Origin: Aquificota bacterium
GTDB taxonomy: Bacteria > Aquificota > Aquificia > Aquificales > Hydrogenothermaceae
Length of the DNA: 64,000 nucleotides
Reading direction: 5' to 3'
Assembly (NCBI GenBank): GCA_013153635.1
Contig: JAADDZ010000021.1
Coordinates: 35,905-99,904 of the forward strand
Position numbers and translations under genes: made by a program. The notes under the pieces are model-generated. The model saw only the letters and a list, made by a program, of their open reading frames with translations. It had not been told where the DNA came from and searched no databases. Below are positions 1,610-59,427 of this stretch, piece after piece. Each line of letters opens with the position of its first letter. The stretch's first letter is position 1.

Positions 1610-3232
1610 TTGACGATAGTTACCAATGGAAGTGAGATAAAGATGGTAAACAAAACATTTTTTAAGTACTTTAGCCAGTACTCTTCTTTGGAAGAATTTA
1701 AGAGGTTTCACAAAAGTATAGCCGAATTTTTCCAAGAGAAAAAAGGCTATCTAAAACCAACAAAAGAAGACAAAATCTGGATAGAACAGGTATGCAAAGA
1801 TAGTGGAAAAACTCACAAAGTATTCTTAAATATAAACGGACACAGATATATAATGTCTGTAAAAGCTTCTTCCTTTTATCTAAACAAGGAAAAACTCTTT
1901 GTAGTTGTATTTTCAGATATAACAGAGCTAGAAAAGATAAACAAAAAACTCGAATTTATGCTCTACCATGATGAGCTTACAATGCTCCCAAACCGAAGAG
2001 CCCTCATTAGGGATATAAAAAACGGCAAAAACAAAGAAGGGTTATGCTTGATAAACATAGATAATTTCAAATCTATAAACGATGTTTATGGAGTAAGGAT
2101 AGGAGACCAGATACTAAAAGAAGTATCTAAAAGGTTAATCTTATGCCTAGAAAGGCAGAACAAAAAGGATAGTAAAGTTTACAAACTACACGCAGATGAA
2201 TTTGCAATCCTATATTTCCACAACAACAAATCTATAAAAGAGTATCAGACAATTATATCCCTAATCATATACGAACTTACAGAAAAACCCTATGTTTTTG
2301 GAGATTACGAAATATTTATAAGTGTTTCTGTAGGTGTTTCTCTATCTGAATGGATAGAAAATATCGATGAACTCCTTCCAACAGCTGATGTAGCATTAAA
2401 AACCGCCAAAAAAGAAAAAAAACATTTCGTCTTTTACAAAGATGTAGAAAAAGAGAAAAAAGATTATGCAGAAAACATATATTGGACAAAAAAATTGGTA
2501 AAAGCTCTAAAACATGACCAGATAAAAGTGTTTTATCAACCTATATATTCTATAAAAGAAAACAAGATAACGAAATTCGAATGTCTAGTTAGAATGATAG
2601 ACGAACACAAAAATGTAATTACCCCGTATAAATTTCTTGAAATAGCAAAAATATCAAAAATCTATCCAGAATTAACAAAAAGAGTTATAAGAGAAAGTTT
2701 TTCTTACTGTAGAAATTGTGAACATGAGTTTTCGATAAATATCGACATTCAAGATATACTAAATGAAGATGTAGTTGAGTTTATTGTGGAATATATCAAA
2801 AAGTACAACGTAGGAGAGAAACTAGTATTCGAATTCTTAGAAACAGAAAGTATAGGAAACTACGAAATAATAAAAGATTTTATCAATGATATGAAAAAAT
2901 TTGGGTGTAAATTTGCAATTGACGATTTTGGTTCTGGTTACTCAAACTTTGAAAGACTGATGGAGCTAAATATAAGTTATATAAAAATAGATTCATCATT
3001 TATCAAAAAACTTCCATACGACCGAGACAGCCACAAAATAGTAAAGCTTATCAATGAGTTTGCCCACACAATTGGAGCAGAAACAGTAGCAGAATTTGTA
3101 TCTTCAAAAGATATTTTTGACAAAGTAGTAGAGCTAGGTATAGACCACGCCCAAGGATTCTATATTGGAGAGCCAAAACCAAAAATAGACAAAACAATGC
3201 TGTTAGATGTTTTTGATAGATTTATAACCTAA
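1610..3232 (+). CDS. PAS-GGDEF-EAL c-di-GMP signalling protein (split from its membrane segment)
   Basis: A PAS-like region spans about residues 1-110, a GGDEF domain 118-275 and an EAL domain 290-535. The GGDEF signature is degenerate (HADEF at 194-198), so diguanylate cyclase activity is unlikely. The EAL signature reads ECL (324-326) but keeps the metal-binding Glu. DDFG (438-441) and the IKID stretch are intact, so phosphodiesterase activity is plausible. The listed TTG start has no convincing ribosome site; the open frame reaches back to the A8 run at 1544-1551 and reads on from the upstream membrane gene. The natural product is probably an inner-membrane protein of about 650 residues. 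The end overlaps the convergent exchanger gene by 11 bases. Confidence 0.85.
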   Translation: MTIVTNGSEIKMVNKTFFKYFSQYSSLEEFKRFHKSIAEFFQEKKGYLKPTKEDKIWIEQVCKDSGKTHKVFLNINGHRYIMSVKASSFYLNKEKLFVVVFSDITELEKINKKLEFMLYHDELTMLPNRRALIRDIKNGKNKEGLCLINIDNFKSINDVYGVRIGDQILKEVSKRLILCLERQNKKDSKVYKLHADEFAILYFHNNKSIKEYQTIISLIIYELTEKPYVFGDYEIFISVSVGVSLSEWIENIDELLPTADVALKTAKKEKKHFVFYKDVEKEKKDYAENIYWTKKLVKALKHDQIKVFYQPIYSIKENKITKFECLVRMIDEHKNVITPYKFLEIAKISKIYPELTKRVIRESFSYCRNCEHEFSINIDIQDILNEDVVEFIVEYIKKYNVGEKLVFEFLETESIGNYEIIKDFINDMKKFGCKFAIDDFGSGYSNFERLMELNISYIKIDSSFIKKLPYDRDSHKIVKLINEFAHTIGAETVAEFVSSKDIFDKVVELGIDHAQGFYIGEPKPKIDKTMLLDVFDRFIT

Positions 3233-45987: not shown

Positions 45988-46463
45988 AACGAAAGATAAA
46001 GAAGTTAGTAGAGCCTCACCAGATACATTCAAAATTAGGGGACACTTTCGAATTTATCGGAGACTTGTTTATAGTATTTCTGATAATACTCCTGTTCTAT
46101 CTAGGATTTCTCGCCCTTATTGACATAGGAGAAGACCTAGTAGCCAGAACCGTTCCTTTTGAAGAACTGATAGCCAAATTTATATACGTCTTTATTCTCA
46201 CTGAACTGTTTAGATTAATGATTATCTACCTTAGAGAAAGAAGAGTAGATGTCCCAACAGTGATAAAAACCACACTTATAGCTATACTTAGAGAAGTTAT
46301 AATAAAAGCTCCTCACTACAAATTTATGGATTTTATAGGTATAGGATTTTTACTTCTCGTTTTGGGAATACTTCTATATGTACCAGAAATCTTTTTAAAA
46401 AGAGAATCAAAAACAAGAAAAAAATATATTAAAAGATACAAAATTAAAGCTAGCCGAAAGTAA
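45984..46463 (+). CDS. PsiE-like membrane protein
   Basis: A 159-residue protein with four hydrophobic segments and the family-like cytoplasmic motif YLRERRVDVPTVIKTTLIAILREVII, resembling phosphate-starvation-inducible PsiE. It ends in a strongly basic tail (RESKTRKKYIKRYKIKASRK). The function of the family is unknown. It is translationally coupled to the transglycosylase and overlaps the convergent ZIP gene by 14 bases. Confidence 0.75.
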   Translation: MKRKIKKLVEPHQIHSKLGDTFEFIGDLFIVFLIILLFYLGFLALIDIGEDLVARTVPFEELIAKFIYVFILTELFRLMIIYLRERRVDVPTVIKTTLIAILREVIIKAPHYKFMDFIGIGFLLLVLGILLYVPEIFLKRESKTRKKYIKRYKIKASRK

Positions 46464-47226
46464 CATCTAATACCATCATAACGATAAACCCTATCAAAAG
46501 CCCTATCGTAGCTTCCATCTCATACCCTTTTTTATGAGTTTGAGGAATAATCTCTTTACTTATCACAAATATCATAGCTCCCGCCGCAAACGCCAAACCA
46601 ATAGGCAAAACTACATAACTAAAACCGAATACCAAAACACCCACCACTCCACCTATCGGCTCTACAATACTAGATAGAAAAGTTACCCAAAAAATACGAG
46701 AAACACGATAACCTTTTGCAACAAGTGTTAAAGCAACCGCTAACCCTTCTGGAATATTCTGGATTCCAATACCAACTGCAAGAGTCAATCCTTTTGAAAT
46801 ATCTCCTGTCATAAAACCTATAGCGGAAGACATTCCTTCTGGAAAATTGTGAACTGTTATAGCAAGTATAAAAATCCATACACTTTTAATCTCTTTTGAG
46901 TTTTTATTATCTATACCTACAAAATAATCTTCTGGTATAAATCTATCAGCCAAGAAAAATATAAAGGCCCCTAAAGAAAGACCAAATGCAACAATCACCG
47001 CTGTTAAAAATCTATTCTCATAGCTTGATAAAGCCAATTCAACAGATGGATTCAAAAGAGAAAAAAAGGAGGCGGCTAACATGACACCGGCACTAAAACC
47101 AAGTAATATATCTTCTACTTTAGGAGATACTCTTTTACCAAAAACAACAGGAAAAGCCCCGATTAGCGTCATAAGTCCAGCGATAGAACTAGCTAATATC
47201 CCGTAAAACGCTAATTCTACATTCAA
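46450..47226 (-). CDS. ZIP family metal transporter
   Basis: A 258-residue inner-membrane permease with eight predicted segments. The metal-binding helices IV and V carry HNFPEGMSSAIGF and GIQNIPEGLAVAL, the ZIP signatures for Zn2+ or similar divalent metals. It resembles ZupT. It lies 12 bases after the RHH-PAS-GGDEF-EAL gene on the same strand, but a shared function is not evident. The substrate range cannot be told from sequence. Confidence 0.92.
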   Translation of the reverse strand: MNVELAFYGILASSIAGLMTLIGAFPVVFGKRVSPKVEDILLGFSAGVMLAASFFSLLNPSVELALSSYENRFLTAVIVAFGLSLGAFIFFLADRFIPEDYFVGIDNKNSKEIKSVWIFILAITVHNFPEGMSSAIGFMTGDISKGLTLAVGIGIQNIPEGLAVALTLVAKGYRVSRIFWVTFLSSIVEPIGGVVGVLVFGFSYVVLPIGLAFAAGAMIFVISKEIIPQTHKKGYEMEATIGLLIGFIVMMVLDVTFG

Positions 47227-47237
47227 CTGAACTCTCT

Positions 47238-49058
47238 TTAGGCGGCAATAATCTCTTTAAGGTCTCTAGGAACTTCTAAAAAGTAACCTTGACAGTAATC
47301 AATGTCCAAGGCTTTTACCTTCTCATATAGCTTCTTATCTTCTACTCCCATAGCAACAGTTTTTATCCCAAACTCCTTTGACAACTCAACAATCGTTTTA
47401 ACGAGAGATTCATTCTTTTTGTCATCAGCGATACTTTTGATAAGATGTTTATCGAACTTTAACATAGAAACAATCTTATCATTGTACAAATCAATCATAA
47501 GTTTTATGGGACAATGTTTTTCTCCAAAGTTATCAAAAACCATATCAAGATTGTATCTGTTTGCTACATCTTTTATAACTTTTAGATTTTCTAAAAAGTC
47601 TGATTCAGGAATCTCAAAACTCGTGTTCTCTCTTAAGTCTATAAGAAGGTCTACAAAATCTTTAGAAGACGTTTCACACTGATAAACTGTTAAATAACTA
47701 AGATTAACGAATAATCTTGTACTTATCTTATGTTTTATCTGATTTATCTCTCTCAAAATCGCTTTATCTATAAACAAAATAAGCCCTGTAGCATATGCAG
47801 TAAAAATAAAATCCTTAGCTTCTATTATCTTTTTATTGTGTTTCACTCTGAAAAAAACTTCGTATCCTAAAAGGTGTTTATTTTTCAAAGAATATATCCC
47901 CTGTAGGTAAGGAACTATATTCTTATTTTGTATCGCATTATACAAAAGCCTCTCATTCTCTAAACCCTTAGTTATCATACCTTGGGAAACAATCAACGGC
48001 TCCTTGTGAACAGTATTTTTCCGCTTAGACAGTTCCACCTCCAACTGTATCAAAAGATTTTCTGCATCTATATCTCCGTTAGGACTTAGTTTGCAACCTA
48101 TCAATGATATAGAAGGAATCCTTATAGTATTTCCTGTGGAATCCTTTAGATATACATGCTGAAGGAGATTTTTCATCTGTTTAACTACCGTTTTAATATT
48201 AATATTACCCTCTATCAAAACAGAAAATTCGTCTTCCCCTGTTTTGCCAAGAATGTACTTGATATTCTTCCTTTTAAAGAAGTATTGCAACTCTTTTGCC
48301 GCTTTCCTAAGATACAGGTTGCCCATCTCAATACCGTATATCTTATTGAAATATTTAAAGTTATAAATATCTATCAAAACTATGTATCCATTTAAGTTTA
48401 GTTTACGAATCTCTGGAAGCCTCTTTGATATTATCTCAAGGAAACCAGCTCTATTTGGAAGCTGGGTAACACAATCGATATTACAGGCGGAAGAACTCTC
48501 CTTTAGAAGACTGTTTAGTTTATCTTGAGTCTCTTTTAGTTTTTCTTTTATGTATATCTCTTGGGTTGTATCTCTTGCGATACCAAGTATCCCGATTATG
48601 TCCCCTTTCTCATCTTTAATAGGTACCTTTGTAACCTCCAAATAATACTTATCCCCGTTTTTATCAAAAATCTCTATGCTAGTGTACGGTTCTTTGGTAT
48701 TTATGGCTCTCATATCTCCATATATACATGTTTTTGCCATCTCTTCATCAAGAAAATCTATGTTAGGTTTATCCAAAATATCAGTGATAGAGTCAATCCC
48801 AAAAAACTCTAAAAATCTCTTATTTGCGTACTTGTACTTTAGAGAGTTATCTTTTATCCATATCAATTCTGGAAAGAGATTTAAAATAGACAAACTTATA
48901 TTCTCAAGCAGTCCTTTCTCTTCACATTCTATCCCTTTCTGTATAAAGTATGAAGCTATCTTAGAAAGAGAAACTTTCCTCTCTTTTGCATATTTCTTTA
49001 GTTTATTTTTAAGCCTTTTTTCTACTATTACACTTAAAATAGGTTTATTTGTAGCCAT
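47238..49058 (-). CDS. Ribbon-helix-helix/PAS/degenerate GGDEF/degenerate EAL fusion
   Basis: A 606-residue protein. An N-terminal RHH-like unit (residues 4-44: ILSVIVEKRLKNKLKKYAK, then VSLSKIASYFIQKG) precedes a PAS domain (about 65-175), a GGDEF domain (190-350) and an EAL domain (370-605). GGDEF reads GEDEF; the EAL motif reads EVF; DDFG reads DNFG, removing a metal-binding Asp. Enzyme activity is thus doubtful, while the LKFD, MGVE and YCQGY surroundings remain. It may sense c-di-GMP and act on DNA, which would be unusual; this is inference. An AGAGGGTGG precedes the ATG. Confidence 0.8.
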   Translation of the reverse strand: MATNKPILSVIVEKRLKNKLKKYAKERKVSLSKIASYFIQKGIECEEKGLLENISLSILNLFPELIWIKDNSLKYKYANKRFLEFFGIDSITDILDKPNIDFLDEEMAKTCIYGDMRAINTKEPYTSIEIFDKNGDKYYLEVTKVPIKDEKGDIIGILGIARDTTQEIYIKEKLKETQDKLNSLLKESSSACNIDCVTQLPNRAGFLEIISKRLPEIRKLNLNGYIVLIDIYNFKYFNKIYGIEMGNLYLRKAAKELQYFFKRKNIKYILGKTGEDEFSVLIEGNINIKTVVKQMKNLLQHVYLKDSTGNTIRIPSISLIGCKLSPNGDIDAENLLIQLEVELSKRKNTVHKEPLIVSQGMITKGLENERLLYNAIQNKNIVPYLQGIYSLKNKHLLGYEVFFRVKHNKKIIEAKDFIFTAYATGLILFIDKAILREINQIKHKISTRLFVNLSYLTVYQCETSSKDFVDLLIDLRENTSFEIPESDFLENLKVIKDVANRYNLDMVFDNFGEKHCPIKLMIDLYNDKIVSMLKFDKHLIKSIADDKKNESLVKTIVELSKEFGIKTVAMGVEDKKLYEKVKALDIDYCQGYFLEVPRDLKEIIAA

Positions 49059-49089
49059 ATTTATACCACCCTCTTACCCTTTCCATTCC

Positions 49090-49117
49090 TTGAAGATTGA
49101 TTAAGACCTATTATAAT
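49090..49117 (+). promoter_or_regulatory. Promoter for ribD with a very short leader
   Basis: TTGAAG (49090-49095), 16 bases, then TATAAT (49112-49117). The ATG at 49127 is ten bases after the -10 box, so the untranslated leader would be only a few bases. There is no room for an FMN riboswitch. Confidence 0.5.
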
Positions 49118-49126
49118 ATATATCCT

Positions 49127-50227
49127 ATGAAAAACGACAATTTTTACATGAATCTTGCTTTGGAGCTTGCCAAAAGAGAAAAAGGAATAACCCACCCTAA
49201 TCCTACAGTAGCGGCTGTCCTTGTAAAAAATGGAAAAATCATAGGGAAAGGTGTTCACAAAGGCGCAGGTAAACCTCATGCTGAAATAGAAGCAATAAAC
49301 GACGCCCAAAAAAAAGGAGCATCTCCAAAAGGTGCAACGATGTACGTAACTCTAGAGCCTTGCTGTCATTATGGCAGAACCCCTCCATGTACTAACGCTA
49401 TTATAGAGCATAATATTAAAAGGGTCGTAATAGGAACAAAAGACCCAAACCCAACAGTGGCAGGAAAGGGAATAAAACTCCTCCAAGAAAAAGGAATAAC
49501 AGTAAAAACAGGTGTCTTAGAAGAATACGCAAAACAGCTCAATGAAGATTTTTTTACCTACATAACCCAAAAACGCCCATTCGTTCACCTAAAAATAGCC
49601 CAAACCTTAGATGGAAAAATAGCATCTTATACAGGTAGCTCAAAATGGATAACAAATGAAAAATCTCGAAAGTACGCTCACAAGCTAAGAAAGGAAGCTG
49701 GTGCTGTTTTAGTTGGAATAAACACTGTACTAAAAGACAACTCTAAACTCACTGTAAGACATGTAGAAACAGACAAACAGCCAAAGAAAATAATCATAGA
49801 TAAAGAACTAAAGATACCCCTTCAAGCAGACTTGCTGTCCACAGAGGGAGAAAGCATAATAATAACATCTGAATATGCTGATAAAGAAAAGATAAAAAAA
49901 CTAAAAGACAAAGGTATAAAGATAGAAAAACTTCCAGTCAAAGAAGGTCTCTTTGAGATAGAAGATTTGCTAAACCTACTATTTGAATTAGAAATCGTAC
50001 AAATCCTCGTAGAAGGAGGAGCTAAAACGATAACAAAATTCTTAAAATCTGGTTTTGTAGATAGATTTTCTATATTCATAGCTCCAAAAATATTAGGAGA
50101 AGAAGGACTATCCTCTATTGGTAAACTAGATATAGAAGACATAAAAGACAGCTACAAGTTTTACGTAGAGAAGCTAAAGAGATTCGACGACGATATATAT
50201 CTTTCTTTAAAACCTTCTAAAAGATAA
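49127..50227 (+). CDS. ribD: Bifunctional riboflavin deaminase/reductase
   Basis: Deaminates and then reduces the pyrimidine intermediate of riboflavin synthesis. The N-terminal deaminase (about 1-145) has the zinc motifs HAEIEA and PCCHYGRTPPC; the C-terminal reductase (about 150-366) has LKIAQTLDGKIAS and LVEGGAKT. The frame is open upstream to 49097, but the ATG at 49127 matches the family start (NFYMNLALELAKREKG) and the promoter position. ribBA lies about 1 kb downstream, separated by a Nudix gene and a cytochrome. Confidence 0.95.
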   Translation: MKNDNFYMNLALELAKREKGITHPNPTVAAVLVKNGKIIGKGVHKGAGKPHAEIEAINDAQKKGASPKGATMYVTLEPCCHYGRTPPCTNAIIEHNIKRVVIGTKDPNPTVAGKGIKLLQEKGITVKTGVLEEYAKQLNEDFFTYITQKRPFVHLKIAQTLDGKIASYTGSSKWITNEKSRKYAHKLRKEAGAVLVGINTVLKDNSKLTVRHVETDKQPKKIIIDKELKIPLQADLLSTEGESIIITSEYADKEKIKKLKDKGIKIEKLPVKEGLFEIEDLLNLLFELEIVQILVEGGAKTITKFLKSGFVDRFSIFIAPKILGEEGLSSIGKLDIEDIKDSYKFYVEKLKRFDDDIYLSLKPSKR

Positions 50228-51156: not shown

Positions 51157-52404
51157 ATGGATATAGTTTTCAATACAATCGAAGAAGCTATAGAAGACAT
51201 AAAACAAGGGAAAATGGTAATAGTCGTTGACGACCCTGATAGGGAAAACGAAGGAGACCTTGTAATAGCCGCAGAGAAAGTAACCCCAGAAGCTATAAAC
51301 TTTATGGCAAAAGAAGCTAGAGGGTTAATCTGCTTATCTTTACTACCTCAAAGATTAGAAGAACTAGACATACCCCTTATGACCACAAATAATACAGACC
51401 CAAAAGGAACCGCTTTTTGTGTATCTATAGATGCACACCCAAAACACGGCACAACTACAGGAATTTCTGCATATGATAGAGCCACTACTATAAAACTTGC
51501 GGTTAGTCCTGATGCAAGACCTCAAGATTTCGTAAAACCGGGACATATCTTTCCACTTATGTCTAAAAAGGGAGGGGTTTTAGAGAGAACAGGACATACA
51601 GAAGCATCTGTAGACCTTGCAAGGCTAGCTGGTTTATATCCTGCAGGGGTTATATGCGAAATAATGAAAGAAGATGGAACTATGGCGAGACTACCAGAAC
51701 TGATAGAATTTGCAAAGAAACACAACTTAAAAATCATAACTATAGCAGACCTAGTCAAATACAGGCTAAAAAAAGAAAAATTTGTGGTACAAAAAGCACA
51801 AGCATACCTTCCTACAAGGTATGGAACATTTAAGATATACGGATACGAAAATACATTAGACGGTCTAGAACATATAGCATTAGTGATGGGGGATATAAAG
51901 CCAGAAGAACCTGTACTAGTAAGAGTACATTCAGAATGTCTCACTGGTGATGTTTTTGGCTCTCTTAGATGTGACTGTCAGTCCCAGCTCCACTCTGCCC
52001 TAGAGAAGATAGCAAAAGAAGGAAAAGGAGTCCTTATCTACATGAGAGGTCACGAAGGAAGAGGTATAGGTATAATAAACAAAATAAAAGCTTATGCTCT
52101 TCAAGAGAAAGGGTACGATACAGTAGAGGCAAACCACAAACTAGGATTTCAAACAGACCTTAGAGATTTTGGAACAGGCGCCCAGATACTTAGAGACATA
52201 GGTGTTAGAAAGATGAAGCTTATGACAAACAACCCAAGAAAGATAGTAGCTCTAAAAGGTTTTGGTCTGGAAGTAGTAGAAAGAGTACCTCTAATAACGA
52301 ACCCAAATCCTCACAATAAACAGTACCTAACAGCTAAAAAAGAAAAATGCGGTCACCTGTTAGAGGAACTTCAGGGGGAATTTTGTCCTATAGACGAAAA
52401 CTAG
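51157..52404 (+). CDS. ribBA: Bifunctional DHBP synthase/GTP cyclohydrolase II
   Basis: Supplies both precursors of riboflavin: 3,4-dihydroxy-2-butanone 4-phosphate (N-terminal half, with [12 protein letters not shown] and the HTEASVDL motif) and the pyrimidine from GTP (C-terminal half, zinc site C-x10-C-x-C in [17 protein letters not shown], and RGHEGRGIG). The 415-residue length is typical. It has an AGAGG ribosome site. It is downstream of ribD with two unrelated genes between; ribE and ribH are not in the window. Confidence 0.96.

Positions 52405-54646: not shown

Positions 54647-59427
<4,781 letters not shown>

Follow-up and report, generated by a model that had tools for sequence, protein, structure and literature searches.

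A Candidate One-Component Transcription Regulator Joining a Ribbon-Helix-Helix Domain to PAS, Degenerate GGDEF and EAL Domains in One Family of Aquificota

Organisation of the Locus

The window, that is, the whole stretch of 64,000 nucleotides of Aquificota DNA that was analysed, contains a gene whose product carries an N-terminal ribbon-helix-helix (RHH) domain followed by PAS, GGDEF and EAL domains (Table 1), and whose ATG start is preceded by the leader gagggtggtataaat. A co-directional gene for a ZIP metal transporter lies 11 bp downstream of its stop codon, forming with it a putative operon, and a ribD-like gene diverges from it on the other side. By sequence, this ribD-like gene (49127–50227, +) and a ribBA-like gene (51157–52404, +) are near the fusion gene, with a NUDIX-like ORF and a cytochrome-like ORF between them.

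Table 1. Coordinates in the window of the fusion gene, its domains and motifs, and adjoining features.
Feature	Position	Strand	Details and evidence
RHH-PAS-GGDEF-EAL gene	47238..49058	-	606 aa, ATG start
Ribbon-helix-helix domain, residues 1–47	48918..49058	-	Orthologue profile matches, structure model, fold matches, antitoxin homology
PAS domain, residues 58–170	48549..48887	-	Pfam PAS_4 (residues 60–167, E 2.3e-13, above cut-off), PAS_9
Degenerate GGDEF domain, residues 193–349	48012..48482	-	Pfam GGDEF (E 5.4e-18, above cut-off); GEDEF, no RxxD I-site
GEDEF replacing GGDEF, residues 274–278	48225..48239	-	Sequence motif
Partly degenerate EAL domain, residues 372–594	47277..47945	-	Pfam EAL (E 8.9e-36, above cut-off); 9/10 essential residues kept
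DNFG replacing DDFG, residues 509–512; degenerate loop 6 (DNFGEKHCPI)	47523..47534	-	Essential-residue comparison
ZIP metal transporter gene	46450..47226	-	TTG start; Pfam Zip 8.2e-30
Divergent intergenic region, RHH gene/ribD-like gene	49059..49126	.	68 bp

The full-length structure model has a mean pLDDT of 83.5, and both the GGDEF and the EAL fold are still recognisable in the protein. Its best whole-model structural match is PA0861 (RbdA; PDB 5xgb, 5xgd and 5xge), which has the same PAS-GGDEF-EAL order; however, the matched crystal structure lacks an RHH domain, and the window protein differs in its degenerate GGDEF domain and changed DDFG motif. The PAS domain that the original prediction had placed after the RHH domain and the GEDEF in place of GGDEF were both confirmed.

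The N-Terminal Ribbon-Helix-Helix Domain

In the window protein alone, the RHH_5 match at residues 16–44 lies below the curated Pfam cut-off (E 0.0037 for the whole protein), with E 6.8e-5 when only residues 1–50 are scanned. When the N-termini of 19 orthologues were scanned singly and matches with E below 1 were counted, RHH_5 was matched by 18, RHH_3 by 16 and RHH_1 by 14 of them, with best E-values of 6.8e-5, 2.8e-5 and 8.4e-4, respectively. Moreover, K5, S9, E26, S30, S32 and E46 are invariant in their alignment, in addition to M1. The conservation of the N-terminus in orthologues, most of which hit RHH families, indicates at the sequence level that the domain is not a chance match. In a profile search of solved structures, CopG ranks first with E 0.06, which is not significant by itself.

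The AlphaFold2 model of residues 1–50 (pLDDT 87) consists of an extended segment followed by helices at residues 14–27 and 31–47, the RHH strand corresponding approximately to residues 7–12. In neither monomer model, of the full-length protein or of residues 1–50, does this strand have a pairing partner, as expected of an obligate dimer. The Foldseek list for the short model is made up nearly entirely of RHH proteins to about rank 40, and re-alignment of the fold matches gave Z values of 5.6–7.4 in the rows listed, almost all of them RHH. The best matches are ORF56, CopASO, CopG, Arc, AmrZ, CdbA, NikR and PutA, together with antitoxins. Since Foldseek E-values for this short 50-residue query are above 0.05, the structural case is built on the uniformity of the fold matches and their agreement with the sequence profiles, and not on those E-values. 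Fold and sequence pattern together support the assignment of the N-terminal domain to the RHH superfamily. The original prediction had read a strand-helix-helix pattern of RHH repressors in residues 4–44, with which the orthologue profiles and fold matches agree, and structure prediction of residues 1–50, as a monomer, likewise gives RHH-type helices. In the alignment with CopG, the invariant S9 falls on Thr6, and S30 and S32 on Ser27 and Ser29, positions which we take to be DNA contacts in CopG.

Kinship with Antitoxins

Apart from the long ORFs and a short RHH-PAS gene described below, the strongest RHH matches in the scan of the phylum are short proteins of other families (G122 and G040). 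Counted from ATG, they are 77 and 75 aa long, and their genes overlap those of ParE-family toxins. These ParE-partnered antitoxins are the closest stand-alone relatives found of the fusion RHH, and the fusion N-termini align with them without gaps, with up to 24 identities in 48 positions and shuffle Z values of 5.5–16.9, which makes an antitoxin-type donor likely; we infer that the transfer went from antitoxin to fusion. Nevertheless, the antitoxins (75–77 aa) have a toxin-binding C-terminal tail and an overlapping toxin gene, whereas in the fusion protein the tail is replaced by the PAS domain. No toxin gene was found adjoining the fusion gene, its neighbours in the window being the ribD-like gene and ZIP. 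With neither an adjoining toxin gene nor a toxin-binding tail, a type II antitoxin of the ParE-partnered RHH kind is ruled out.

Genera g4 and g7 also have ORFs of about 175–220 aa that begin with an HNH/NUMOD-like sequence and end in an RHH-like segment (L080, L081, L082, L083 and L087, in G034, G015, G018, G020 and G024); these look like homing-endonuclease-type proteins with an RHH domain.

Distribution and Origin of the Fusion

The combination of RHH with GGDEF/EAL domains was searched across 136 genomes of the phylum and is confined to one family, f1, which probably comprises heat-loving bacteria. RHH-bearing long ORFs are carried by 22 genomes in six of its genera (g1, g2, g3, g4, g5 and g7) and range from 319 to 651 aa, the 319-aa one being cut by a contig end and a 428-aa one unexamined; not every genus or genome of the family has the gene. 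Outside f1, the RHH-PAS-GGDEF-EAL architecture was not found among the 136 genomes. The one long ORF matched by RHH outside the family, of 534 aa and at E 9e-4, resembles a metabolic enzyme, and the match was taken as chance.

In the GGDEF-EAL tree, which is rooted at the midpoint for drawing purposes only, a branch with support of 100/98 separates the RHH-bearing from the RHH-less proteins. This split fits one fusion and is consistent with the RHH domain having joined a PAS-GGDEF-EAL protein a single time. A wider contig search with the window protein returned a single locus, 22% identical and matching only from residue 173, and in a plasmid search the matches listed covered the PAS part only, with no record covering 80% of residues 1–170. 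Independent RHH fusions may exist elsewhere, beyond the sequences searched. The highest-scoring RHH-less relatives are three PAS-GGDEF-EAL proteins of genus g5 with no RHH detected (L016, L022 and L025, the last cut by a contig end), in which the EAL domain is intact (10/10 essential residues) and the GGDEF domain is degenerate.

Conserved and Eroded Domains

The RHH and PAS domains are the most conserved parts of the fusion protein, with mean pairwise identities of 0.60 and 0.64, compared with 0.37 for GGDEF and 0.36 for EAL. The GGDEF motif appears in the orthologues as GDDTF, GDDLF, GGSRF, SGNKF and other forms, with SGDEF present only in the G004 orthologue among the full-length set, and the RxxD I-site upstream of it is absent in all 18 proteins checked. 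With GEDEF, the window protein does not conform to the GG[D/E]EF pattern of active diguanylate cyclases, and it was rejected as one.

The EAL domain was compared against ten residues of ProE that cannot be exchanged without complete or almost complete loss of activity (PMC7290235). The window protein keeps nine of them, which is short of the full set expected of an active phosphodiesterase: Asn510 replaces the equivalent of D450, the second Asp of DDFG, so that one metal-binding Asp is lost, and loop 6 is degenerate. Residues E400, R404, N452, E482, K534, E573 and Q590 of the pocket are kept. The original prediction had called this domain inactive on account of its EVF (residues 400–402) and DNFG motifs; both motifs were confirmed, but by residue content the domain is only mildly degenerate. 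Relatives in g1, g3 and g4 keep 8–9 of the ten residues, whereas only 2–6 are left in g5 and g7, where the pocket residues are largely gone. Overall, RHH-bearing EAL domains have 2–9 essential residues, in contrast with 9–10 in sixteen RHH-less paralogues.

Two further GGDEF-EAL genes lie within the window, at 56803–58401 (−) and 1967–3178 (+), and keep 10/10 and 9/10 essential EAL residues, respectively. The genome also encodes PilZ proteins and other GGDEF/EAL proteins, which makes it likely, judging from gene content, that c-di-GMP signalling operates there.

One genome, G013, carries a complete gene for RHH-PAS alone, lacking GGDEF-EAL. Its 186-aa product is 47% identical to residues 1–166 of the window protein, and the gene is convergent with recG, as are the full-length genes of G019 and G023 of the same genus. 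Loss of GGDEF-EAL is a more parsimonious origin for this short form than an ancestral state, because other genomes, including those two, have the long form. RHH-PAS is probably the regulatory core, since it is all that G013 encodes of the protein, at a locus flanked by recG like that of the full-length genes in this genus. The gene divergent from it (L041:1771-3606, −) codes for a possible haem-based sensor cyclase, a GGEEF protein that has a membrane-like segment and the haem-type motif CLQCHK.

Proposed Function and Alternatives

The protein is probably a dimeric, PAS-gated one-component transcription regulator in which the degenerate GGDEF-EAL part serves dimerisation and, in this branch, possibly c-di-GMP binding. 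The RHH domain of ParE-antitoxin kind would form an intertwined DNA-binding dimer, and the PAS domain, as the main sensor, would shift the geometry of the dimer through its flanking helical segments. The phosphodiesterase-like GGDEF-EAL part could tune the regulator by dimerisation and, in this branch only, by binding c-di-GMP. The original idea of a one-protein transcription regulator stands as the best reading, with the RHH, PAS and degenerate GGDEF domains supported by profiles, models and comparison, and with DNA binding as a predicted property. Its c-di-GMP component fared less uniformly: the window protein and its g1, g3 and g4 relatives may respond to c-di-GMP, because most EAL pocket residues remain there, but such a response seems unlikely as the core function of the whole family, because these residues are largely gone in g5 and g7 and G013 does without GGDEF-EAL.

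A broader evolutionary account can be put forward only tentatively. The regulator class would have arisen once in family f1, when an antitoxin-type RHH was placed on a c-di-GMP phosphodiesterase-like protein, and would have passed through stages from a near-intact EAL domain (window protein and g3) to a dead one (g5 and g7) and to a protein that has lost GGDEF as well as EAL (G013). In this account the window protein would be an RHH repressor gated by c-di-GMP and PAS.

A trigger phosphodiesterase, in which the EAL domain slowly hydrolyses c-di-GMP and turnover gates DNA binding, as in Escherichia coli PdeL and in principle PutA, is unlikely. The nine essential residues retained, the conservative nature of the D to N change, the intact DDFG of the G004 orthologue and the precedent of PdeL as a DNA-binding EAL enzyme (PMC5052742) would all fit it; however, alanine exchange at the equivalent Asp of ProE leaves extremely low or no activity (PMC7290235), loop 6 is degenerate, and most catalytic residues are missing in g5 and g7.

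RHH domains can also serve mainly in dimerisation. That the RHH domain here binds no specific DNA and acts only in dimerisation or protein docking, for example with a c-di-GMP signalling scaffold or a ParE-like toxin, is quite improbable. Signalling between proteins often involves sensor and GGDEF-EAL domains, and an operator motif search, a k-mer search in the 100 bp upstream of 14 representatives, found no shared operator: it gave AT-rich words only, which were no more frequent than the top words of shuffled sequences, and the single 8-bp inverted repeat in the G004 promoter region is not common to the others. Nevertheless, all fusion proteins aligned share Ser9 in the strand and, where helix B begins, Ser30 and Ser32, which are positions of the DNA-contact type, PAS takes the place of the toxin-binding tail, and no toxin gene adjoins. 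A decaying gene without present function, in which GGDEF-EAL drifts since the whole protein is dispensable, would account for the strong divergence of these domains and for the patchy presence in f1, but is very hard to reconcile with a frame open in 22 genomes (two ORFs only partly seen), with the conserved RHH and PAS domains and with GGDEF and EAL folds that are still recognisable.

Relation to Known Systems

PutA and NikR set a precedent for controlling an RHH regulator through a domain fused to it, and the RHH domains of both match the model. The attached parts are proline-catabolic enzymes in PutA and a nickel-binding domain in NikR, unlike the PAS-GGDEF-EAL part of the window protein. 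CdbA of Myxococcus, among the fold matches, is likewise an RHH protein in c-di-GMP signalling, but a stand-alone, nucleoid-associated one that itself binds c-di-GMP and has homologues reported only in Myxococcales (PMC7156744), whereas the window protein is multi-domain. CdbA aside, every demonstrated case of an RHH protein under ligand control involves an additional domain to which the ligand binds (PMC7156744), and by analogy the window protein would be an RHH regulator with a ligand-binding extra domain.

PdeL (YahA) of E. coli, a c-di-GMP-controlled autoregulator (PMC5052742), also has a DNA-binding domain and EAL on one chain; however, that domain is a LuxR-type HTH, PAS and GGDEF are lacking, and its EAL is active. 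A PdeL-type trigger phosphodiesterase by architecture, with an N-terminal LuxR-type HTH, was rejected, the N-terminal domain here being RHH. The lokiarchaeal RHH-HisKA-REC protein (PMC5847659) shares an Arc-type RHH placed on a signal-transduction protein, but differs in its signalling domains and archaeal lineage. The original remark that the architecture is uncommon holds as far as tested: a full-text literature search, with most subscription papers outside its coverage, yielded RHH-HisKA-REC and CdbA and no RHH-GGDEF/EAL protein, so that RHH on PAS-GGDEF-EAL is a build not found described in the literature searched. If the proposed function is true, RHH would become one more of the DNA-binding domains that are fused directly to modules of c-di-GMP type, and the family would offer a graded natural series showing how a signalling enzyme becomes a transcription regulator and which domains then become dispensable.

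Neighbouring Genes and Candidate Targets

The likeliest target of the regulator would be its own promoter region, shared with the divergent gene, and in the window an autoregulatory operator would most likely lie in the 68-bp intergenic region. The adjacent ZIP gene, originally named as a possible target, is a weak candidate: it is co-directional rather than placed behind a divergent promoter, and as the next gene it occurs only in g1 (spacing of about 8–14 bp) and g3, while the loci examined in other genera lack it. No neighbour gene is common to all genera carrying the fusion. The divergent ribD-like gene is found in g1 and g2, whereas its place is taken in g3 and most g7 genomes by a gene for a PAS3-GGDEF protein of diguanylate-cyclase type, with AGDEF or GGDEF, and in G013 by one for another protein, with GGEEF. 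The PAS3-GGDEF gene was rejected as a universal partner, since none of the g1, g2, g4 and g5 genomes tested gave a match at E 1e-60. With cyclase-type genes adjoining it in two genera, the protein would provide a testable regulator for bacteria whose c-di-GMP circuits are poorly known. In g4, a PilZ-domain protein is encoded two genes downstream of the RHH gene; on the same strand, a 226-aa membrane-like protein (L044:7654-8331, +) is followed by this 478-aa PilZ-domain protein (L044:8466-9899, +).
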